From NCBI RefSeq assembly GCF_007671725.1, contig NZ_VCNM01000002.1, positions 744,001 to 808,000 on the forward strand: DNA of 64,000 nucleotides, read 5' to 3'. Of the stretch, positions 15,056 through 48,758 are shown one piece after another; position 1 is the first letter of the stretch; each line of letters opens with the position of its first letter. Position numbers and translations under genes: made by a program. The stretch is from Halorubrum depositum. Its GTDB lineage: Archaea > Halobacteriota > Halobacteria > Halobacteriales > Haloferacaceae. A model generated the notes under the pieces. That model searched no databases. It was not told the origin of the DNA and saw only the letters and a program-made list of their open reading frames with translations.

Positions 15056-16018
15056 TCAGCGGTTCGTCGGCTCCCGCGGGAGGTCCAGCGACTCCGTCAG
15101 GTCGTGTTCCTCGCCCGTGAGCAGGTAGAGGACGTCCTCGAGGATGACGGCGAGCTCCGGGAGCTCCCGCACCGCGAGGAACGTGATGCCGATCAGCGCG
15201 ACGACCGCGAGGAGCTGGCTCATGATCCGGTCGGAGATGAGGAACGAGACCCGGTACGGGTCGCTCGCGCCGAACATCGCGAGCACGAGGTCGGTCTGCC
15301 ACTGCATGTACTGGTTGCCCGCGACGACGGAGATGAACGTCGTCCGGAGGATGTTGAGCACGTAGATGAGCGGGATCGAGACCGCGAGCGCGCGGAGCTT
15401 CCGCGAGAGCGGCGCCCGCACGGCGGCGACGAGCCCGCCGAAGATCGCCATGCTCCCGAGCCCCGTACACGCCAGCACGACGTGGATCGTGACCGTGTGG
15501 CCGTCGGGGAGCGTCCACGCGTACGCCGCGTCGTACCCCTCGTAGCTCGTCACGCGCTCCGGCGCGTAGCCGAGGAGATCGATGAGGAATCCGGTCTGGG
15601 TGGCGACCGCCTCGATGAGGATCCGGCGGGGCTCGGGGAACGCGACGCCCGCGAGCGTGAACGCCGGGATCGTCTCGAACGGGAGGTAGATGAACAGCAT
15701 GAGCGAGATGGCCCGCGTGAGCGTGAACAGCGAGGCGCGGCCGTTGTACAGCAGGTAGCCGGCGTAGATGCAGGCCGGGACGCCGACGAGCGCCAGGATC
15801 GACTCGACGTAGCTCTGGTGTTCGAACGCGAAGTACGGGACCGTCGTCAGCCAGAACAGTCCGAACAGCGCCCACGTCCCCGCCGCGAGCGACCGGCCCG
15901 CGGCCAGTCCGCGGCTGTCGAGCAGCCACGAGACGGCGAAGAGGATCGCGACGAGCCAGGCGAAGGTGAACGTGTCGGGGATCAGGCTCAGGATCGCCGG
16001 CACGCCGGGACCGAACAT
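15056..16018 (-). CDS. artA: Archaeosortase A
   Basis: 320 aa integral membrane transpeptidase-like enzyme that processes PGF-CTERM proteins (including S-layer glycoprotein) and couples cleavage to lipid anchoring. Many transmembrane helices. Catalytic residues are visible: Cys184 in ACTGLGSM, Arg225 in NILRTTF and Arg264 in ISDRIM. Their spacings (41 and 39) equal those of the C173/R214/R253 triad of Haloferax ArtA as I recall it. Both PGF-CTERM proteins in this window (2993-4252 and 25822-28626) are predicted substrates. The gene stands alone with a short upstream gap to spt5. Confidence 0.95.
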   Translation of the reverse strand: MFGPGVPAILSLIPDTFTFAWLVAILFAVSWLLDSRGLAAGRSLAAGTWALFGLFWLTTVPYFAFEHQSYVESILALVGVPACIYAGYLLYNGRASLFTLTRAISLMLFIYLPFETIPAFTLAGVAFPEPRRILIEAVATQTGFLIDLLGYAPERVTSYEGYDAAYAWTLPDGHTVTIHVVLACTGLGSMAIFGGLVAAVRAPLSRKLRALAVSIPLIYVLNILRTTFISVVAGNQYMQWQTDLVLAMFGASDPYRVSFLISDRIMSQLLAVVALIGITFLAVRELPELAVILEDVLYLLTGEEHDLTESLDLPREPTNR

Positions 16019-24729: not shown

Positions 24730-24895
24730 TTGGCTCACTTCGCGCGCGCCACACCGTGAACTTTGTGCCTTCGTTCGCGCGGCTGACATCGAGCGCGCAC
24801 TGACCGACTGCGCGCCGACCGAGCGCGCCGCCAATTATCAGACAGGGATCCCCGCGTCGATACGCTTAACCGTTACAACGGGCCTAACAGTGCTC

Positions 24896-25564
24896 ATGCA
24901 CAGACGTGGACTGCTCGCGGCGATCGCCGCATCGACGTCCGTCGCCGTCGCCGGGTGCGCCGGCGGAGAAGACGGGAGCTACGAGTACGACGCGGATCCC
25001 GCCCGGATCCCGTCGGAAACGGCCTCCGACGCCGGGTACGAGGGCGAGGAGCCGGAGTCGTTCACCATCGAACAGGAGTTCGACGTGGCGGGCGTGAACG
25101 CCCAGGTGTCGGCGACGACCTGGGTCGCCGGGTACGAGAACCCGGACAACGGGTCGGCGCTGTTCGTGGCGAGCACCCCGGACGCGTCGGTCGGCGGCCA
25201 GTCGGTCAATCCCCTCGTCCGCGCGGACGACGCGGAGCTGATCCGCCGGCTGTTAGAACAGACCGACCAGCGGGGATTCGGCGGCGAGGGCACCGACGTG
25301 GAGGCCGAGGACATCGAGAACCGCGGGTCGGAGACGCGGACTATCCTCGAGCAGGAGGTCGAGGTCTCGATCCTCGAAACCACGATCAACGCGGAGGTCG
25401 ACGCCGGGAACAACCAGAGCGGCAGCGCCGAGGACGTCCCCGTGTTCCTCTACGTCGCGACCGTCCGGCACGACGATGACGTGATCGCTCTCGTCGGCGT
25501 CCATCCCACCGCTATCGACGCCGGCGACGCCGTCCTCTCGCTGATGGAACAGGTCGAACACTGA
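24896..25564 (+). CDS. Secreted lipoprotein, DUF6517-like
   Basis: 222 aa. A Tat-like/lipoprotein signal MHRRGLLAAIAASTSVAVAGC ends in a lipobox with the Cys at about 21. The mature part reads YDADPARIPSETASDAGYEG, then a domain with STPDASVGGQSVNPL and LVGVHPT near the end, the layout of haloarchaeal DUF6517 lipoproteins. Start chosen at ATG 24896; an in-frame GTG two codons earlier is possible. The AT-rich CGCTTAACCG upstream may be the promoter. Function unknown. Confidence 0.85.
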   Translation: MHRRGLLAAIAASTSVAVAGCAGGEDGSYEYDADPARIPSETASDAGYEGEEPESFTIEQEFDVAGVNAQVSATTWVAGYENPDNGSALFVASTPDASVGGQSVNPLVRADDAELIRRLLEQTDQRGFGGEGTDVEAEDIENRGSETRTILEQEVEVSILETTINAEVDAGNNQSGSAEDVPVFLYVATVRHDDDVIALVGVHPTAIDAGDAVLSLMEQVEH

Positions 25565-25821: not shown

Positions 25822-28626
25822 ATGGATCGAAGAAACTCAACTCAGCGTGGGCCGGTGGTTATTCTCGTCATCTGTGTTGTCGTGATTTCAGTTGTCGCGG
25901 TGGGTGTAACTCTGGCTTCTGGGGAAGCGGATGGGAGCCGATCTCACAATATAACAACTTCAGGAGAATATAATTCTGTAAACGGTTCTATTACAGTTCA
26001 AGATCAGGCAACAGTTTCTACGAATTTTGTTAGAAACAGCAGAACTACATCTGGAGTGACTATTAGTGAAATCGAATCAAATGTAAATTCGACGATCGTC
26101 CTTACTGACAAGGATACTAGCGACATTGTTGGATATAAATCGCTTTCAGTAGAACAAATAAATGACAAAGACAATATGTCGCTCAATACGTCAAATTTGG
26201 GCGGGGCAGTTGGGGCATATCTCATACCGAGTGAGAACATTAGTATAAATCAAGATCGTATCGATACAGAACTATCTGAACAAGAGAAAAATTCAGCAGT
26301 TGATAAAGACAGAGCGCACGTGTACCTGGGTACTGTAGAGTTTGAAAATCAAGAATTCAAAAAAGCAGGAGCAGCCAATATCTCTGTGGCAACTTCTGAA
26401 GTACGAGACACGATCGGGATGAACACACCATATATTATTTCTATCCACCCAATTACTTCCAGTAATAAAGTTGTGTATGATGAGTATATTGGATATTCAG
26501 ATGTTCTTGTTGGTGTGAACGATGGGATAAAAATACCTGTTAGAGATGCAAATGGAAGCAAAAGCAGAATTTGGCACAGTAACCGATATGTGGCAACTAT
26601 TCGGCTTGCACAGGGACAAAAACCGGGAGACCCCGTGAATTTGGCATCAACGAAGCGGTTGCCGAATTCAGATATAAACCATCAATTTGTAGAGGGAGAT
26701 GTGTCCGATAGTGCAGATGTGCGCATTACCAATGTTCCCTTGGATATAAACAACAGTAGTAGACTGGATCGTAAGTTCAATCATACGAACTACACTGGTA
26801 AACAAATTTATTCTGGAGAAGTAGTCCTGTTCGAAAATAACACCTCCACAACAAACTCTATTAAATTGCATAGAAGACTACCAGATAACCGTTCAATAAT
26901 AGCCGGATTAGGAACGCCTCTGAATGGCACAGAGGGAGTAGTTTTTAATACGACTGGCTTACCCACAGGGACTTATTCACTCACCGGTGGTGGATTTGAG
27001 AAGGGAAATCGATTCAAATTAATCGGGAGGGATGCCCAAGAAGTAGAAATCGACAACATCAGGGAAGAAATGGAAATCGGAATCCAGACAGACTATGAGC
27101 TATGTCATCACACCCCGGAAGTTAGTGTGAGAATCTTTAACTTAAATACAAACAGCACACTCGCAACTGCCAACCTCTCCACACCATCTTCCGGTCGCAC
27201 CTCGATTGGGATCAACACGTACGCACTCGGTAACGAATCGCTGACGGACGGTCTCGTCACCGCGGGGCCGGGTGCGACCGTCGAATCGGTCAACACATCG
27301 ATGTCGAACGAGACGCTGCCACCGGGGGAGTATCGGGTCGCGGTCCGCTCCGAGCAGGGACTCGCCGCGACGGCGGACGAGACGACTGTCATGGTCGCGA
27401 ACCGGTCGACGAACGGGCTGACCGCCTACGCGACGGCCGACCTCGATCGGAGCGACCTCGGGACGGCCGATGCGGTACAGCGGGCGATCGCGAACGGGAC
27501 GCTCTCGCCGACGTCAACCGTCACTTCCGGCGAAACCGTGGTGTACGTCGCGAACGCCACGGGACTGACCGGGCTGCCGGCCGCGCGGAACGCGACCCCG
27601 GAGACGGGCGCCGACCTGGCTCGGCTCGACGGGCTCGCCTTCGGCGTACGCTCGAACGCGTCGACGATTTCGACGGCGGAGGACGACCGAACCGACGCGA
27701 ACGGGTCGGTCCCGAGGAACTCGTCCGTTCACGTCGACGACCGAGGCCTGTACCTCGTCGCCGATGCCGACGACGCCCTCGCGACCGACGAGACGCCCGC
27801 CGACGGGGAGGCGTTCACCGCAGAGTTCCTCGTGGCGGACGAACGGCTCCGCGAGGCGGCGTCGGATCCGACCGGCGGTCACACCGCGTCGACGACGGTG
27901 ACCTTCGAGACGCCGCCTCCAGACGGGGAGGACGGCGATTCGAAGAGCGACGGCAGCCTCGAAGGCGGTGGAGGCGAGGGTGGGTCCGACGGCGGAGCGA
28001 CGGGAGGTGACGCGACCGGCGGCGGGACGTCCGGCGGAAGCGCTGCGACGGGGAGCGGCGGAACCGCCGGCGGCAGAGCGACCGGGTCCCCACCCGAGAC
28101 GGGCTCTCCGCCGAGAGGGACGAAGGCGGGAGAGGCGGGAAACGAGAACGGTGACGGGCCGCGGTCCGAACTCGGGCGGAGCGGGGGTCGCTTCGGGATC
28201 CGGCCGGTCGCCGACGTCCGGACGGTCGCGCGCGACGATTCCACCGGATCACCCGCGTCCGTCTCTCGGACGGCGGCGTCCTCCGGGGTAGGCATCGCCT
28301 CGCCGGGAGACGGCAGCGTCCGGTCCGAGGCGGGTGCGGGCCGCGGCGACGCCGGGTCGGACGACACGGGTGCCGGGAGCGACGAGGCGGCGAGAGCGAA
28401 CGGAGCGGACGCGGAGGCCCCCGCAAGCGACGGTTCGGGATCGAAATCGGATACGGCGGGATCGAACCCCGACACGACCGACACGGACCCGGCGACTCCG
28501 AGCTACGACGACGCGCCGATCCGGACGACCGCCGAGGACGTGCCCGGGTTCGGTCCGCTCGCCGCCCTGGTCGCGCTCCTGTTCGCCGGTGGGCTCGCCG
28601 CGCGTCGGCGGGATCGGGAGGCGTGA
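25822..28626 (+). CDS. Mosaic PGF-CTERM surface glycoprotein
   Basis: 934 aa exported protein. A signal/TM segment (about 12-32) follows MDRRNSTQRGPVVILV. Residues from about 33 to 455 form beta-rich, Asn/Ser/Thr-rich domains with many N-x-S/T sequons. A second domain (about 520-700) resembles haloarchaeal BGTF-type surface domains. A long Gly/Ser/Asp linker leads to PGF (908-910), a hydrophobic helix and RRRDREA: an archaeosortase A substrate. Codon use is split: about 25850-27190 is strongly AT-rich with A/T third positions, while the rest is normal GC-rich haloarchaeal sequence. The frame is intact across the junction. Confidence 0.85.
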   Translation: MDRRNSTQRGPVVILVICVVVISVVAVGVTLASGEADGSRSHNITTSGEYNSVNGSITVQDQATVSTNFVRNSRTTSGVTISEIESNVNSTIVLTDKDTSDIVGYKSLSVEQINDKDNMSLNTSNLGGAVGAYLIPSENISINQDRIDTELSEQEKNSAVDKDRAHVYLGTVEFENQEFKKAGAANISVATSEVRDTIGMNTPYIISIHPITSSNKVVYDEYIGYSDVLVGVNDGIKIPVRDANGSKSRIWHSNRYVATIRLAQGQKPGDPVNLASTKRLPNSDINHQFVEGDVSDSADVRITNVPLDINNSSRLDRKFNHTNYTGKQIYSGEVVLFENNTSTTNSIKLHRRLPDNRSIIAGLGTPLNGTEGVVFNTTGLPTGTYSLTGGGFEKGNRFKLIGRDAQEVEIDNIREEMEIGIQTDYELCHHTPEVSVRIFNLNTNSTLATANLSTPSSGRTSIGINTYALGNESLTDGLVTAGPGATVESVNTSMSNETLPPGEYRVAVRSEQGLAATADETTVMVANRSTNGLTAYATADLDRSDLGTADAVQRAIANGTLSPTSTVTSGETVVYVANATGLTGLPAARNATPETGADLARLDGLAFGVRSNASTISTAEDDRTDANGSVPRNSSVHVDDRGLYLVADADDALATDETPADGEAFTAEFLVADERLREAASDPTGGHTASTTVTFETPPPDGEDGDSKSDGSLEGGGGEGGSDGGATGGDATGGGTSGGSAATGSGGTAGGRATGSPPETGSPPRGTKAGEAGNENGDGPRSELGRSGGRFGIRPVADVRTVARDDSTGSPASVSRTAASSGVGIASPGDGSVRSEAGAGRGDAGSDDTGAGSDEAARANGADAEAPASDGSGSKSDTAGSNPDTTDTDPATPSYDDAPIRTTAEDVPGFGPLAALVALLFAGGLAARRRDREA

Positions 28627-28687
28627 GGCGACGCTCCGACGCCGCGGTGGCGGTATCCTTTTGCTGGACCGCTCCCTTCCGTCGGGT

Positions 28688-28855
28688 ATGAGCGTGACCA
28701 TCACCCCGCCGCGGAAGCGGGAGTGCGAGCTGTGCGGTCGCCGCGAGCGGTGGGACGAGGAGAACACCGGCTGGCAGATCGCCGACGAACCGGGCGAGGT
28801 CTACTGCATCCACGAGTGGGACATCAACGGAACGTTCACGCCGCTTCGCGAGTGA
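28688..28855 (+). CDS. HEWD family small zinc-ribbon-like protein
   Basis: 55 aa: a CELCGRRERW motif (13-22), then EVYCIHEWDINGTFTPL. The name-giving HEWD tetrapeptide is present. Only three cysteines (13, 16, 40) plus His42 are available for a metal. Short conserved haloarchaeal family of unknown function. Start at ATG 28688 after TCCTTTTGCTGG, a plausible promoter remnant. Confidence 0.85.
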   Translation: MSVTITPPRKRECELCGRRERWDEENTGWQIADEPGEVYCIHEWDINGTFTPLRE

Positions 28856-29166
28856 CCGGCCGGGTTCCGATCGACGACGAGTTCGGTTTCGCTCAACGGT
28901 GAATTCGATTTCGGCCGACTATCGCGCGGTTTTTCTTCCGTTGACGATAACGCACCTATTTTCCGTATCGTTCTCTGTCTCGGCGGTTTTATTTCCAATT
29001 ACAAATTATAACTAGGCTATCTCCGGATTATAACTGATCAAACAGGAAACGAATTGTGTGTTATTCACCCCTGATGAATAATTACCTTATATTCCCTAAT
29101 GTGTGTACGAGGGATCCTACCCGTATCAGGGTTATACCTTTAAGTGATCATCTGTGAGTGGGGAGC
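28856..29166 (+). promoter_or_regulatory. AT-rich gltB upstream region with direct repeats
   Basis: 311 nt without a gene, far more AT-rich than its flanks. Core promoter candidate: GTTATACCTTTAAG at 29131-29144, about 25-30 nt before the gltB ATG. Upstream, ATTATAACT occurs twice (29005-29013 and 29027-29035), 22 nt apart, that is about two helical turns. This looks like a regulated promoter, fitting a nitrogen-assimilation gene. Confidence 0.5.
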
Positions 29167-32100
29167 ATGACCGAGCCACGTAGTGACACCCGGGGGGGTT
29201 CGGAATCCTCGGGCCACGGTGGGGGGCTTGCGGACGTATCAGACGAGCGGTCGAACTGCGGGATCGGCGGGATCGTCGACCTCGACGGGGACCCGAGCCA
29301 CGACACGGTGACCGACGCGGTCCGGCTGCTGGAGAACCTCGAGCACCGCGGGACCACGGGCGCCGAGGAGAACACCGGCGACGGGGCCGGGATCATGGTC
29401 GCGCGCCCGGACGACTTCTTCCGCGACGTCGTCGACGCCGACCTCCCCGACGAGTACGCGGTCGGCTCCGTCTTCATGCCGACCGAGGGGAGCGTCCAGG
29501 CGGAGATCCACGACGTCATCGCCGAGGTGTTCTCCGTCTACGGGCTGGAGGTGCTCGCGTGGCGCTCCGTCCCGACGGACAACGCCGACCTCGGCGAGAC
29601 CGCGCTCGACTCCGAGCCGGAGATCGCCCAGCTGTTCGCCGCGCCCGTCGAGGGCGCCGGCCTCGCCGAGCGGTTCACCAGCGAGGAGGCCCGCCCGGAC
29701 GACGCCGACCCCGAGCTCCTCGGCTTCGACCGCGCGCTGTACGCCGCCCGCCGCGAGATCGAGAACGCGGTCGCCGACGTCGACGGCGCCGGCCGGTTCT
29801 ACGTCTGCTCGCTCGACCGCCAGCGCGTCGTGTACAAGGGCCTGCTGAAGGGCTCCCAGCTCGCCGACTACTACCCCGACCTGACCGACGAGCGCTTCGC
29901 CAGCCACGTCGCCTTGGTCCACGCGCGGTTCTCGACGAACACGCTCGGCGCGTGGCACCTCGCGCACCCGTACCGCAACATCGTCCACAACGGCGAGTTC
30001 AACACGATCCGCGGGAACGTCAACTGGATGCGCGCCCGCGAGAACGACCTCGAACACCCCGCGTTCGGCGCCGAGCTCGACACGATCAAGCCGGTGATCG
30101 ACGACCCGAACCAGTCGGACACCGCGAGCGTCGACAACGCGGTCGAACTCCTCCTGCAGGCCGGTCGGGACCTCCCGCACACCCTCCGGATGCTGATCCC
30201 GGAGGCGTTCCGCGACGACGACCTGATGGACGCGGCGCGCACCGACTTCTACGACTACCACGCGTCGCTCGTCGAGCCGTGGGACGGTCCCGCCCTGGTC
30301 ATCGGCTTCGACGGCGACCGCGTCGCCGGCGTCCTCGACCGCAACGGGCTCCGCCCCTGCCGGTACGAGGTGACCGAGGAGAACCGCCTCGTCGTCGGCA
30401 GCGAGGTCGGCGCGCTGCCGACCGATCCCGCCGAGGTGCAGCGCCGCGGGCGGCTCCAGCCCGGCGAGATCTTCGTCGCCGACCCCGAGGAGGGGCGGAT
30501 CGTCCCCGACGACGAGGTGTTCGCCGAGCTCACCGACGAGAAGTACGGCGAGTGGGTCGACGAGCGCCAGGTCGACCTCGACGAGGTCGCGAGCGAGGTC
30601 GACCCCGAGACGGAGGCGGTCGACGCCCCCGGCGTGGACGAGGGCGGCGAAGACGCCGAGAGCGACGAGTCGACAGTCCGGATCCACCAGGCCGCGTTCG
30701 GCTACACGACGGACTCGCTGAACCACCTCGTCGAGCCCATGGCGAAAGACGGGAAAGACCCCGTGGGCTCGATGGGCGACGACACGCCGCTGTCGGTGCT
30801 CGCGGACGTCGACCGCCCGCTGTTCACCTACTTCAAGCAGCTGTTCGCGCAGGTGTCGAACCCGCCGATCGACTACATCCGCGAGGAGCTCGTCACCTCG
30901 CTGGAGACCCGGATGGGGAACCAGCGGAACCTGCTCGACGAGACCCCCGAACACGCCGAGCAGATCGTCTCGGATTCGCCGATCCTCACCGACGCCGAGA
31001 CGGCCGCACTGAAGGGGCTCGACGGCGAGCCGGTCGACGGCGACGGCCCGGCGTTCGCCTCGGCGACGGTCGATATCACGTACGACCGCGAGGGGTCGCT
31101 CGTCGACGCCGTCACCCGGATCCGCAACGAGTCCGCGGCCGCGATTCGGGACGGCGCCGACGTGGTCGTCCTCTCGGACCGCGCGGTCGGCCCGGACCGG
31201 CTCGCGGTCCCGAGCCTGCTCGCGACCGGCGCGGTCCACCACCACCTCGTCCGGAACGGGCTGCGGAACCGCGCCGGGATCGTCGTCGAGTCGGGCGAGC
31301 CGCACGAGGTCCACCACATCGCGACGCTGGTCGGCTACGGCGCCGACGCGATCGACCCGTACCTCGCGTACGAATCCATCGCCGACGTCGTCGCGGGGCC
31401 GGACGGCGCCGACGAGGAGGAGGCGCTCGCGGCGTACCGCGGCGCGCTGGAGGACGGGCTCCTCAAGACGATGGCGAAGATGGGCATCTCGACGATGGAG
31501 TCGTACCAGGGCGCCCAGATCTTCGAGGCGGTCGGGCTCGCCTCCGAGTTCGTCGGCGAGTACTTCGAGGGGACCGAGATCCGCACCGAGGGGATCGGGA
31601 CCGAGGAGATCGAAGGCGACCTCCGGACGCGTCACGCGATGGCGTTCGGCGCCGATCCCAAGCTGGAGACGACCGGCGAGTACGAGCACCGCTCGTCGGG
31701 GATCAAACACGGCTGGAACCCGCAGACGGTCGGGACGCTCCAGCAGGCGGTTCGCGGCGGCGACTACGAGCAGTACGGGGAGTTCGCCGAGCTGGTGAAC
31801 GACCAGTCCGAGGAGCTCCAGACGCTCCGCGGCCTCCTCGAGTTCGAGTCCGACCGCGATCCGGTGCCGGTAGAGGAGGTCGAGCCGGTCGAGTCGATCG
31901 TCGAGCGCTTCTCGACGGCGGCGATGAGCCTCGGGAGCATCTCGCCGGAGGCCCACGAGAACAACGCGATCGCGATGAACCGGATCGGCGCGAAGTCGAA
32001 CACCGGCGAGGGCGGCGAGCCCCCGGAGCGATTCGGTACCGAGAAGGAGTGCAACGTCAAGCAGGTCGCCTCCGGCCGGTTCGGCGTCACCGCCGACTAC

Positions 32101-33837
32101 CTCGCGAGCGCTGACGAGCTCCAGATCAAGATGGCGCAGGGCTCGAAGCCCGGCGAGGGCGGCCACCTCCCCGGCGAGAAGGTCAACGAGATGATCGCGC
32201 ACGTCCGGTGTTCGACGCCCGGCGTCGGGCTCATCTCGCCGCCGCCGCAACACGACATCTACTCGATCGAGGACCTCAAACAGCTCATCTTCGACCTGAA
32301 GGCCGCGAACCCCGACGCCGACGTCAACGTGAAGCTGGTGTCGGAGGCCGGCATCGGCACCATCGCGGCCGGCGTCGCGAAGGCGAACGCGGACGTCGTC
32401 CACGTCTCCGGCCACGACGGCGGGACGGGCGCGTCCCCGAAGACGTCGATCAAGAACGCGGGGCTCCCGTGGGAGCTCGGCCTCGCCGAGGCGAACCAGA
32501 TGCTCCGCGCGACCGGCTTGCGCGACCGCATCCGCGTCACCGCGGACGGCGGGCTCAAGACCGGCCGCGACGTCGCGGTCGCCGCCGCGCTCGGCGCCGA
32601 GGAGTACGTGTTCGGCACCGCGTCGCTCGTCACCGCCGGCTGCGTGATGGCCCGCCAGTGCCACGAGAACACCTGTCCGGTCGGCGTCGCGACCCAGCGG
32701 GAGGACCTCCGACAGCGCTTCCCCGGCCAGCCGGACCACGTCATCAACTACATGACGTTCATCGCCCAGGAGCTCCGCGAGATTATGGCCGAGCTCGGCT
32801 ACACGGAGGTCGAGGAGTTCATCGGGCGGCCCGAGCTCCTCTCCCAGCGCGAGACGGACCACGAGAAGGCGAAGCACCTCGACCTCTCGGCGGTGATCGC
32901 CGAGCCCGCGGGCGACGCCCGAACCAAGACCCGCGAACAGGACGACGCCGACATCGAGGCGCTGCTCGACTGGGACCTCATCGACGAGGCGGCTCCGGCC
33001 ATCGAGGACGGCGCGCCCGTCGCGCTCACCCGCGACGTGGAGAACGTCGACCGCGCTGTCGGCGCGACGCTCTCGAACCGCGTCGTCTCCGAGCACGGGG
33101 GCGAGGGGCTCCCCGACGACACCGTCACTTGCCGGTTCGACGGCTACGCCGGCCAGAGCTTCGGCGCGTTCCTCGCGTCCGGCGTCACCTTAGAGCTCAC
33201 CGGCGCCGCCAACGACTACCTCGGGAAGGGGCTCTCCGGCGGTCGGATCGTGGTCAACACGCCCGAGGAGGCCGGCTACGACCCCGCGGAGAACGTCGTC
33301 GCCGGCAACGTCGGGCTGTACGGCGCCACCGCCGGCGAGGTGTACGTCAACGGCGTCGTCGGCGAGCGCTTCGGCGTCCGCAACTCCGGCGTGCGGGCGG
33401 TCGTCGAGGGCGTCGGAGACCACGGCTGCGAGTACATGACCGGCGGCGTCGTCGCCGTGCTCGGCGACACGGGCCGGAACTTCGCGGCCGGGATGTCCGG
33501 CGGCGTCGCCTACGTGTACGACCCCGACAACCGGCTCGACGACCGCGTCAACCGCGGGATGGTGTCGGTCTCGGAGACGCTCGACGACTCCGACGAGCGC
33601 ATGCTCCGCCGGCTCGTGGAGAACCACCGAGCGTACACCGGCAGCGACCGCGCGGCCGAGCTGCTCGACGACTGGGCGGCGACCCTGGACGACTTCGTCC
33701 GGGTCTTCCCCGACGCGTACGCCGACGTCATCGCCGAGGGCAAGGGCGCCGACGTGCGCGACGAGCCGCCGGCGGCGGCCGAGGCCGTCCCGGGCGCGGC
33801 GAGCGAGTCGACCGGACAGGCGTCGAGCGACGACTGA
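29167..33837 (+). CDS. gltB: Glutamate synthase, large subunit
   Basis: 1556 aa. It makes two glutamates from glutamine and 2-oxoglutarate. Domain order: class II glutamine amidotransferase (catalytic Cys31 in SNCGIGG, with NLEHRGTTGAEENTGDGAGI), central domain, FMN-binding synthase barrel (SLGSISPEAHENNAIAMNRIG, AQGSKPGEGGHLPG, VHVSGHDGGTGASPKTS), the 3Fe-4S cysteines in TAGCVMARQCHENTCPVGV, and a C-terminal beta-helix glutamate-synthase domain (GLYGATAGEVYVNG). Start at ATG 29167. No gltD small subunit follows, so ferredoxin rather than NADPH is a likely electron donor. Residues 1-28 and about 480-510 are acidic insertions. Confidence 0.96.
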   Translation: MTEPRSDTRGGSESSGHGGGLADVSDERSNCGIGGIVDLDGDPSHDTVTDAVRLLENLEHRGTTGAEENTGDGAGIMVARPDDFFRDVVDADLPDEYAVGSVFMPTEGSVQAEIHDVIAEVFSVYGLEVLAWRSVPTDNADLGETALDSEPEIAQLFAAPVEGAGLAERFTSEEARPDDADPELLGFDRALYAARREIENAVADVDGAGRFYVCSLDRQRVVYKGLLKGSQLADYYPDLTDERFASHVALVHARFSTNTLGAWHLAHPYRNIVHNGEFNTIRGNVNWMRARENDLEHPAFGAELDTIKPVIDDPNQSDTASVDNAVELLLQAGRDLPHTLRMLIPEAFRDDDLMDAARTDFYDYHASLVEPWDGPALVIGFDGDRVAGVLDRNGLRPCRYEVTEENRLVVGSEVGALPTDPAEVQRRGRLQPGEIFVADPEEGRIVPDDEVFAELTDEKYGEWVDERQVDLDEVASEVDPETEAVDAPGVDEGGEDAESDESTVRIHQAAFGYTTDSLNHLVEPMAKDGKDPVGSMGDDTPLSVLADVDRPLFTYFKQLFAQVSNPPIDYIREELVTSLETRMGNQRNLLDETPEHAEQIVSDSPILTDAETAALKGLDGEPVDGDGPAFASATVDITYDREGSLVDAVTRIRNESAAAIRDGADVVVLSDRAVGPDRLAVPSLLATGAVHHHLVRNGLRNRAGIVVESGEPHEVHHIATLVGYGADAIDPYLAYESIADVVAGPDGADEEEALAAYRGALEDGLLKTMAKMGISTMESYQGAQIFEAVGLASEFVGEYFEGTEIRTEGIGTEEIEGDLRTRHAMAFGADPKLETTGEYEHRSSGIKHGWNPQTVGTLQQAVRGGDYEQYGEFAELVNDQSEELQTLRGLLEFESDRDPVPVEEVEPVESIVERFSTAAMSLGSISPEAHENNAIAMNRIGAKSNTGEGGEPPERFGTEKECNVKQVASGRFGVTADYLASADELQIKMAQGSKPGEGGHLPGEKVNEMIAHVRCSTPGVGLISPPPQHDIYSIEDLKQLIFDLKAANPDADVNVKLVSEAGIGTIAAGVAKANADVVHVSGHDGGTGASPKTSIKNAGLPWELGLAEANQMLRATGLRDRIRVTADGGLKTGRDVAVAAALGAEEYVFGTASLVTAGCVMARQCHENTCPVGVATQREDLRQRFPGQPDHVINYMTFIAQELREIMAELGYTEVEEFIGRPELLSQRETDHEKAKHLDLSAVIAEPAGDARTKTREQDDADIEALLDWDLIDEAAPAIEDGAPVALTRDVENVDRAVGATLSNRVVSEHGGEGLPDDTVTCRFDGYAGQSFGAFLASGVTLELTGAANDYLGKGLSGGRIVVNTPEEAGYDPAENVVAGNVGLYGATAGEVYVNGVVGERFGVRNSGVRAVVEGVGDHGCEYMTGGVVAVLGDTGRNFAAGMSGGVAYVYDPDNRLDDRVNRGMVSVSETLDDSDERMLRRLVENHRAYTGSDRAAELLDDWAATLDDFVRVFPDAYADVIAEGKGADVRDEPPAAAEAVPGAASESTGQASSDD

Positions 33838-47316: not shown

Positions 47317-47775
47317 TCAGTCTTGGCGGACGAACGTCACGGGGCAGGGCGCGTTCAACAACACGTTCTGTGCGACCGAACCGAAGACGGCCTTGCCGCT
47401 CGGCGAGCGGCGTCGGCCACCGATGACGACCAAGTCCGCACCGACATCTTCCGCGATTCCGATGATGGCCTCGCCGACGGCGCCCCCTTTGGCCAACCGA
47501 CCGTGTTCCGTGTGCTCGACGCCCGCGTCCTCCATGTCGTCGATGAGCGCCTGGATGTTCACGTACCGCTGGGCGGTAACGTCCGGCGTGACCTCGCTGT
47601 CGCGGTCGAAATCCAGGTTGTTGCGTGCCTTTTGGTACTCCCCCTCGGTGAACACGTGGGCCAGCGCCACCGACGCACCGGGCGGCCCGGCGATATCCGC
47701 TGTGATCGATGCGAGGTCGTCAAGTCGGTCATCGTCCTTCTCGCCGACGGCCAAGAGTACCGTTTCCAATCCCAT
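47317..47775 (-). CDS. Universal stress protein (UspA family)
   Basis: 152 aa single Usp domain. Start MGLETVLLAVGEKDDD at ATG 47775 matches strand beta1, ALAHVFTEGEYQKAR follows, and the ATP-binding signature is near the C-terminus: GADLVVIGGRRRSPSGKAVFGSVAQNVL, with the G-x2-G-x9-G(S) pattern read loosely. AT-rich promoter region 47800-47842 upstream, including GTAAACATTA and ATTAATGAATTAAT. Role in stress or osmotic adaptation is a family inference. Confidence 0.93.
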   Translation of the reverse strand: MGLETVLLAVGEKDDDRLDDLASITADIAGPPGASVALAHVFTEGEYQKARNNLDFDRDSEVTPDVTAQRYVNIQALIDDMEDAGVEHTEHGRLAKGGAVGEAIIGIAEDVGADLVVIGGRRRSPSGKAVFGSVAQNVLLNAPCPVTFVRQD

Positions 47776-48049
47776 ACACCCCAACTCAAAGGCGATACTG
47801 GTAAACATTAGTTATTTACGGCTATAGATTAATGAATTAATATGTTCCCCTCGCGGTCGGCCCGATCGCGCTCTCTGTCGGAGAGGAGCTTTCCAGAGAG
47901 ACGATTTCAGACGACCAGCGTTCGAAAGCCCGCGTCGCTCGGGTTCACACTCCTCAGCACGGCGAAGCGATTCGAGTGGACTCGCGGGGTCCCCACGAGC
48001 GAAGCGAGTGGGGGCACGCGAGGAAAGAAGACGAACGAAGTGAGTCGAG
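47776..48049. other. usp promoter region and tRNA-Ala downstream region
   Basis: 274 nt without a gene. Left part: AT-rich usp promoter (47800-47842). Right part: an 18-nt copy of the tRNA-Ala 3' end (47972-47989) and a GC hairpin, CCCCAC/GTGGGG, at about 47992-48013. Confidence 0.55.
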
Positions 48050-48062
48050 TGGACTCGCGGGG
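47972..48062. repeat. 18-bp direct repeat of the tRNA-Ala 3' end
   Basis: TCGAGTGGACTCGCGGGG is present at 47972-47989 and again at 48045-48062, where it covers the last 13 nt of the tRNA plus 5 nt of downstream flank. The 55-nt interval carries no gene. The arrangement resembles attL/attR left around an integration site in a tRNA gene. Confidence 0.7.
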
Positions 48063-48121
48063 ATTTGAACCCCGGGCCTTCCCCGTGCCAGGGGGATGAT
48101 CTACCACTGATCTACGAGCCC
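48050..48121 (-). tRNA. tRNA-Ala (anticodon GGC)
   Basis: 72 nt on the minus strand. Acceptor GGGCTCG pairs with CGAGTCC and includes the G3-U70 alanine identity pair; discriminator A73. D arm GATCAGTGGTAGATC; anticodon arm TCCCC-CTGGCAC-GGGGA with anticodon GGC; T arm CGGGG-TTCAAAT-CCCCG. No intron and no encoded CCA. All four arms pair well. Confidence 0.97.
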
Positions 48122-48212
48122 TCGTACGCGTTCCATCGTTCCCCGCTGGATATATTAAGGCCTTCGACTCGGCGACGGTCGGGGAATCGGCTTGCACCGG
48201 GTCGTTCTGCCC

Positions 48213-48758
48213 TCAGATCTGCTCGGAGTCGACGTACACGTCCAGATCGACGTTTCGGGTCGACCCCTCTAAGTCGCGGACGGCGCGCTGGACGACGCGC
48301 TCGGCCTCGGTCCGGATGAGCGGGACCGCCTTCTTTACCACCCAGTCGAAGGAGACGAGCCGCGGGAGGTCGAGCGCGTCCGGGCTGGCCGACCCCGGAT
48401 CGAACTCGACTTCGAGCGCGACCTCGCAGGCGGGGTCGCCACTCTCGTTTCCGTCGGACCCGGGTTCCGGCTCCGTCGGCGTCACGCGCCAGCAGCCCCC
48501 GGCGTCGATGTCCTTCGTGATCTCCCAGTCGATCCGCTCCGGCGGCTCGACCCCTGTCACCCGCGAGTGGGCCGTGTAGGTGACCTTCCACCACGCGAAC
48601 CGGAGCGCGTAGCGGGTGCCGGGGCCGCCGTCGCCCTCGATCGTCCGCACGTCGTCGAGGTACTTCGAGTAGCGGGCGTAGCCCGGGAAGTCGAGCAGGA
48701 ACTCGTACACCGCCTCGGGGTCGGCGTACACCTCGGTCCTCACGACGAGTTCGTCCAC
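48213..48758 (-). CDS. SRPBCC/polyketide-cyclase-like (START fold) protein
   Basis: 181 aa. Helix-grip fold: MDELVVRTEVYADPEAVYEFLLDFPGYARYSKYLDDV at the start (characteristic of coenzyme Q-binding/polyketide cyclase proteins), a central beta-sheet with PPERIDWEITKDIDAGGCWRV, and a long C-terminal helix with LIRTEAERVVQRAVRDLE. A short acidic loop lies at about 98-110. Probably binds a lipid or other hydrophobic ligand. It is upstream of the tRNA-Ala on the same strand. Confidence 0.88.
   Translation of the reverse strand: MDELVVRTEVYADPEAVYEFLLDFPGYARYSKYLDDVRTIEGDGGPGTRYALRFAWWKVTYTAHSRVTGVEPPERIDWEITKDIDAGGCWRVTPTEPEPGSDGNESGDPACEVALEVEFDPGSASPDALDLPRLVSFDWVVKKAVPLIRTEAERVVQRAVRDLEGSTRNVDLDVYVDSEQI

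Follow-up and report, generated by a model that had tools for sequence, protein, structure and literature searches.

Does an AT-rich half-gene in a GC-rich haloarchaeal chromosome record the recent arrival of foreign DNA, or does its composition belong to the locus itself? The question is raised by a surface-protein gene of Halorubrum depositum located at 25822-28626 on the forward strand of the 64,000-nucleotide stretch of contig NZ_VCNM01000002.1 analysed here, hereafter called the window. A first-pass annotation, made from the letters of the window, proposed that the exposed N-terminal region had been swapped in register by recombination with foreign DNA, which would diversify the cell surface, for example against viruses. 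We searched 69 relatives, comprising 41 genomes of the same genus (the window's own included) and 28 from outside the genus, with one genome per species in the sample. In 39 of the 41 genomes of the genus, the region between the signal peptide and the C-terminal domain (about 1.3-1.75 kb) was found as one of two forms, designated A and B, and the window carries form A.

Architecture of the gene and its neighbourhood

The frame is unbroken, as first annotated, and a single uninterrupted open reading frame encodes a protein of 934 aa. Its signal peptide region (25822-25917, aa 1-32, with a predicted helix at aa 10-30) is a conserved 5' end common to both forms within a clade; DNA identity between A/B sister pairs is high up to this point and then falls to chance level. 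The exchangeable AT-rich ectodomain block follows (25918-27177, aa 33-452), scoring 612 bits against profile A and having no match to profile B, and its AlphaFold2 model predicts all-beta, Ig/FN3-like domains at 25975-27036 (aa 52-405, pLDDT 53-91 per 10 residues). A first ectodomain domain of about 130-145 aa, which the other full-length A forms carry directly behind the signal peptide, is absent from the window protein and from its nearest relative (G047); the match to profile A skips positions of about 63-193, and with alignment A2 this places the approximate site of the missing domain at 25960-25978. Homology between A and B genes resumes at the 3' junction (27154-27201), and a conserved GC-rich C-terminal domain common to both (27190-27888; 37-80% identical to that of the window across the 14 sequences, from both forms, in alignment A1) is followed in the translation by a low-complexity stalk rich in G, S, T and D (27910-28521) and by a PGF-CTERM sorting signal (28528-28611, aa 903-930), all on the forward strand.

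This anchor had also been recognised at first pass, and the NCBIfam model TIGR04126 confirms it at 32.6 bits against a cut-off of 24.5. The genome in addition encodes an archaeosortase A homologue (TIGR04125, 339 bits), the expected processor of the PGF-CTERM signal, so that the protein has both of the marks of an archaeosortase A substrate, namely the motif and the enzyme in the same genome. The archaeosortase A gene lies on the reverse strand of the same window (15098-15961; G000:C2:759098-759961), about 10 kb from its presumed substrate, and a second, partial match was observed on contig C4.

AlphaFold2 models of form A (window aa 1-700) and form B are all-beta and of moderate confidence (mean pLDDT 66 and 74). 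Fold searches with these models returned generic Ig/FN3-like all-beta matches only (best Z 8.4 over 86 residues for A and 10.2 for B), from which we draw no function, and sequence searches for relatives of solved structure gave a best E of 0.094 for profile A and nothing up to an E of 1 for profile B. A DUF7282-like match (Pfam PF23951, E 0.0012) was seen in one of 12 members and is too weak for a firm assignment. The haloarchaeal S-layer glycoprotein was also considered as an identity and rejected, given that TIGR04216 matched the C-terminal end only, at 19.7 bits against a cut-off of 400 bits; no gene of the genome passed that cut-off.

The gene was located by sequence match in 40 of the 41 genomes of the genus, as a positional orthologue within a conserved neighbourhood. 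Upstream lies a syntenic gene for a lipoprotein-like DUF6517 protein (24890-25564, forward strand, Pfam PF20127), and downstream lie, likewise syntenic and on the forward strand, genes for a HEWD domain protein (28688-28855, Pfam PF20576) and for the large subunit of glutamate synthase, gltB (29158-33837, NCBIfam NF008730, 1627 bits). This neighbourhood was recognised on both sides in 29 genomes, of which 26 have it on a single contig and three have it split over two; eight genomes showed the downstream side only, one the upstream side only and two neither side.

Two ectodomain forms and their junctions

Form A was assigned to 23 genomes, including that of the window, and form B to 16; the two untyped genomes are one in which the gene is cut off before the block (G001) and one with no match (G051). 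An all-against-all comparison of the N-terminal parts yielded exactly two clusters, of 23 A and 15 B sequences, and one further genome (G029), untyped in the tree of the flanking proteins, was typed as B afterwards, which raises B from 15 to 16. Each sequence scores 392-859 bits against the profile of its own form and at most 66 against the other. The B query matches these 16 genomes, whereas the 23 A genomes and the 28 outside the genus gave no hit. Hits to the A profile come from every one of the 23 A genomes, with a best E of 2.3e-80 or lower, and from two of the 28 outside the genus; those in B genomes are weaker and lie either in other genes or at the beginning of this one. No genome examined carries both versions, and a search of the genus genomes at E up to 1e-3 found no silent second copy of either block, distant A-like domains aside.

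Such distant A-like domains occur in other genes of several genomes (G045:C62, G045:C5, G029:C27 and others). One of them (L137, on G045:C62) belongs to a 1629-aa frame of another surface protein; at a different locus (L050, on G025:C1), three A-like domains stand in tandem in a 991-aa frame, in a genome whose 18-kb stretch has a GC content of 0.49.

The two forms are distant from each other even as profiles. Aligned with their ends, they match at 99.1% probability; trimmed, they match at 47.7% (E 1.9e-4), and the match is then confined to the final 119 columns. This trimmed similarity is marginal, and equal function of the two forms is therefore not to be assumed.

A search of genome contigs with an alignment of the C-terminal domain returned 28 named loci, a set that overlaps the 41 genomes, so that the counts are not to be added together. 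These were typed as 13 A and 14 B, with one untyped; named examples of form A are Hrr. saccharovorum, Hrr. ezzemoulense and Hrr. xinjiangense, and those of form B are Hrr. lipolyticum, Hrr. tebenquichense, Hrr. distributum and Hrr. sodomense. All are from Halorubrum except one Halobellus captivus record and one Halobacteriales MAG. In the Halobellus captivus ZY8 record (L129) the gene groups with Halorubrum genes, and the label may be outdated or wrong.

The limits of the exchangeable unit are seen in the DNA of three sister pairs of opposite form (G015/G032, G049/G016 and G014/G052). In all three, identity stays high along the signal peptide and the greater part of the upstream region. Counted per 30 columns, it drops to values of mostly 20-53% in the block, and it recovers to 70-100% at a shared position, to within about 30 bases, that lies 12 codons ahead of a conserved NTY motif. 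The stretch of unrelated DNA between the two sharp junctions measures about 1.65-1.75 kb. The closest pair (G015/G032) differs by 2.5% in its flank proteins and by 7.6% in the C-terminal domain, and its ectodomains are unrelated in DNA. The 3' junction seems, from the models, to fall inside a beta domain and not between domains. The conserved C-termini and unrelated N-termini that the first-pass annotation anticipated among orthologues are thus what A and B sister genes display. Since unrelated ectodomains stand between near-identical ends, replacement of the domain in register, with the signal peptide and the PGF-CTERM half retained, holds for the genus; AT-richness, however, is not its mark, and the replacement does not account for the composition.

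The block is also, in some genomes, broken. It is apparently interrupted by insertion-sequence-like DNA in four of them (G003, G006, G008 and G029). The copy of G003 contains a 0.9-kb insert (L040:11670-12601) with a DDE transposase (PF01609, E 2e-15) and a second break. In G008, G006 and G029 the block runs into contig ends (L047, L134, L042, L135, L043, L136) whose terminal sequences are repeated and which we read as probable insertion sequences; one short sequence forms the end in both G006 and G029, and another is common to G003 and G008. A fifth genome (G005, L033:1523-4751) has a frameshift, real or a sequencing error, that leaves frames of 487 and 594 aa. With the block broken in four genomes by apparent insertion sequences and in one by a frameshift, the gene appears not to be always needed. 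Occasional loss is what would be expected of a costly receptor, or else AT-rich DNA may simply attract such elements.

Base composition, phylogeny and competing explanations

The composition of the block is exceptional within the window. The GC content of 25918-27160 is 0.405, against a mean of 0.706 (s.d. 0.034, minimum 0.60) over 122 stretches of 500 bp elsewhere in the 64 kb, and no comparable AT-rich block was found in the rest of the window, the stretches at 28601-29400 and 47701-48250 being far milder (GC minima of 0.53 and 0.58). Per block of 30 codons, GC3 is 0.20-0.47 over codons 1-450, 0.70 over codons 451-480 and 0.77-0.93 in the later full blocks, with a change point at about 27196. 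Fourfold-site GC is 0.34 for aa 33-445 and 0.85 for aa 460-934, compared with 0.97 in gltB and 0.94 in the lipoprotein gene. The compositional mosaic described at first pass, with an AT-rich stretch of about 1.3 kb and a GC-rich C-terminal half, is thereby reproduced by the GC3 plot. The signal peptide, described then as GC-rich, is in fact intermediate and clearly below the neighbouring genes (GC3 0.47; fourfold GC 0.48 over 23 codons), so that the AT-rich stretch has a sharp 3' edge and a gradual 5' edge.

The same split, at the same place, is present in all 34 genes of the genus that are long enough to test, in both forms. Mean GC3 over these genes is 0.324 (range 0.23-0.51) in the block and 0.865 (0.74-0.96) in the C-terminal domain, and the GC3 change point lies between -22 and +20 codons from the junction of A/B homology (median -3). 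Mean block GC3 is nearly equal in the two forms (0.324 and 0.323), though A and B are unrelated in DNA. AT-richness as a trait of the domain family is ruled out, given that the A-like domain on G045:C62, which belongs to a different gene in a genome of the genus, is GC-rich, with a GC3 of 0.70-0.76. From the recurrence of the split in 34 of 34 genes and from the GC-rich related domain elsewhere it follows that the composition belongs to the locus and is silent on a recent foreign source. The mosaic is an old, genus-wide state; AT-richness is stable in both forms and is not evidence of a recent import here.

The view that the N-terminus of this strain was recently replaced by foreign AT-rich DNA, viral or from other haloarchaea, was prompted by the sharp step in composition at about 27196, and we now consider it extremely improbable. 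The same step is present in every gene tested, so the segment is not unlike its orthologues in composition, as a recently imported one would be, and form A is common to the five nearest relatives of the window and follows their phylogeny. Nor were the expected viral homologues of the N-terminus confirmed in phages, plasmids or viral contigs: tblastn against phages and plasmids gave no match, PHROGs nothing better than E 0.24, and scans of viral contigs with the form A and form B alignments, which have limited divergence reach, gave 32 and 64 pattern matches, none of them confirmed. A scan of genome contigs with the window protein alone likewise returned 41 pattern matches, none confirmed. The first-pass annotation had named, as evidence against replacement, the same AT-rich N-terminus in orthologues together with vertical phylogeny throughout; the former was found and the latter was not.

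The distribution of the forms was assessed on two trees. The first was built with IQ-TREE from concatenated flanking proteins of 37 genomes, 36 of them typed, and the second from the DNA of EF-2, a gene on a different contig in the window's own genome, for 38 typed genomes; the latter is weakly resolved. One genome with few flank columns filled (G009) was excluded from the distance and split comparisons, another whose gene lies outside the usual neighbourhood (G046) was left out of the distance table and kept in the EF-2 tree, and a third with neither recognised flanks nor a full-length EF-2 match (G013) is in neither tree. The form changes at least 10 times on the flank tree (mean of 10.8 for shuffled labels, 193 of 500 being as low) and at least 12 times on the EF-2 tree (mean of 12.1, 282 of 500 being as low). 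As these counts are close to those of the shuffles, form is statistically random on the tree, and the two allelic classes cross species boundaries on both. Form is likewise not linked to the upstream DUF6517 gene, on whose tree the A/B labels require 9 changes (8.8 on average when shuffled).

Within each class, the genealogy does follow the species tree. Of the 19 splits in the N-terminal tree of form A (22 genomes), 13 recur in the flank tree, against a maximum of 3 in 2000 shuffles; for form B (13 genomes), 4 of 10 recur, against a maximum of 2 in shuffles. Agreement with the EF-2 tree is weaker (6 of 19 splits for A and 3 of 10 for B), beyond most shuffles nonetheless. Forms that track the species tree within themselves while species switch between them make up the pattern of a trans-species polymorphism, which exchange biased towards relatives could mimic. 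The block is under purifying selection, its dN/dS being 0.16-0.24 in 12 same-form pairs, an average that denotes constraint and not diversifying selection. For the same pairs, dS is 0.67-1.76 in the N-terminal block against 0.27-0.49 in the C-terminal domain, which fits a greater age of the block but may reflect different codon use.

We favour, with moderate confidence, the explanation that this is a single-copy surface gene with two ancient, mutually exclusive ectodomain versions at one chromosomal position throughout the genus, which are swapped by recombination and kept by balancing selection. Strains would exchange the entire block in frame by homologous recombination within its conserved ends, and balancing selection of the negative frequency-dependent kind would have preserved the two versions over many speciations. 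Most likely, the ectodomain would act as a recognition surface for viruses or partner cells, on which the rarer version is favoured; our searches of phages, plasmids and viral contigs confirmed no viral homologue of the ectodomain, and nothing ties it directly to a virus or partner cell. The near-random recurrence of both versions across the genus suggests that selection keeps both in play, and balancing selection probably maintains the dimorphism. However, A and B were not seen to coexist within a species in this sample of one genome per species, and exchange among close relatives could yield much of the same pattern with no selection at all. Haloarchaea recombine readily (PMC5867893), and if the block were occasionally swapped between related species through its conserved ends, neutrally or under mild selection, form would be random with respect to phylogeny, relative-biased exchange would also give congruence within forms, and species may each be fixed for one of them. 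Such introgression is possible, if rather unlikely: the near-even split of 23 to 16 and the presence of exactly two forms genus-wide are harder to explain by drift, and 13 of the 19 form A splits agree with the flank tree. Far less probable is that an A gene and a B gene were once adjacent as ancient paralogues, of which one or the other was then lost. The forms are indeed as divergent as paralogues, but A and B sister genes are near-identical in DNA on both sides of the block and no genome has retained both forms.

Two further proposals bear on role and composition. The locus may be a two-allele recognition locus, with two ectodomain idiomorphs kept genus-long by balancing selection in a mating-type-like manner, not only as a virus receptor, and with a non-exchanging block that drifts AT-rich. 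A role of this kind would presumably lie in cell-cell recognition before fusion and gene exchange, and we regard the proposal as doubtful. A tentative explanation, for the composition only, is that the block is exempt from whatever holds the rest of the genome at high GC, and lies close to its mutational equilibrium; as an example, it could be speculated that A and B cannot pair and thereby experience less recombination-associated GC bias. Its composition does look like an equilibrium at near-saturated silent sites. Unrelated A and B sequences share their mean GC3, this equality persists with synonymous sites within forms near saturation, and a similar domain elsewhere is GC-rich. Escape from the GC force is nevertheless speculative, as each form is still able to recombine with its own kind, and selection on mRNA, on expression or on an Asn/Ser/Thr-rich protein make-up would be alternatives.

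Relation to known systems and significance

Going by published descriptions, the closest known kind to the A/B locus is that of the Halorubrum homeoalleles and homeocassettes. Feng and co-authors describe homeocassettes in Hrr. ezzemoulense as divergent, mutually exclusive islands, bordered by the same core genes and swapped by recombination, and infer homologous recombination in the flanks and long-term persistence of the homeoalleles (PMC11078007). The A/B locus belongs to the same genus and resembles them in having mutually exclusive divergent variants at one position with conserved core-gene borders, and, like homeoalleles, A and B exclude each other at an equivalent site flanked by the same core genes. 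Homeoalleles are also homologous despite their high divergence, a point on which A and B show the marginal trimmed-profile similarity given above. It differs in that the exchanged unit is part of one gene, from the signal peptide to the C-terminal domain, and that its forms recur genus-wide; a homeocassette is an island with a gene content of at least 50% homeoalleles, which part of one gene is not. In Table 1 of that article gltB is a border gene in none of the nine island pairs, and 'glutamate synthase' is absent from its main text.

S-layer proteins are known to vary through recombination or replacement in both Haloquadratum and Haloferax (PMC4535781, PMC3119063, PMC5867893). In Haloquadratum walsbyi the region of the S-layer glycoprotein is divergent, and the authors propose virus escape (PMC3119063, PMC4535781). 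As at the A/B locus, a surface protein there varies in a conserved syntenic setting, and the N-terminal part of one S-layer orthologue lacks a clear counterpart (PMC3119063, PMC4535781). The variation described in that species, however, involves large multi-gene islands in many versions within one species and not a two-form block in one gene whose ends are conserved. Haloferax offers two distant types of surface protein in one genus, as the A/B locus does, and these are discussed together with virus sensitivity and mating preference (PMC5867893); each of the Haloferax S-layer types belongs to one clade, whereas the A/B forms are scattered over the tree and the protein fails the S-layer model. 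In Hrr. lacusprofundi, the S-layer is the receptor of virus HRTV-DL1, and escape mutants alter S-layer proteins (PMC10544981). That receptor is from the same genus as the A/B protein, but different genes are involved and no virus is known for the A/B protein.

Among the open-licence PMC papers listed in our literature searches, none describes the locus as dimorphic. Long-lived two-form polymorphisms that persist across species borders are a classic sign of balancing selection in eukaryotes, as in the MHC, self-incompatibility and mating type. A clean case in one archaeal gene, with precise junctions, would be a tractable test of whether viruses, mating or ecology lie behind the surface diversity of haloarchaea. 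The locus also calls for caution, as an AT-rich half-gene in a 70% GC genome mimics fresh foreign DNA and is here an old state shared by two unrelated sequences. By the same token, the cause of the high GC content of haloarchaea becomes directly testable at the A/B locus.
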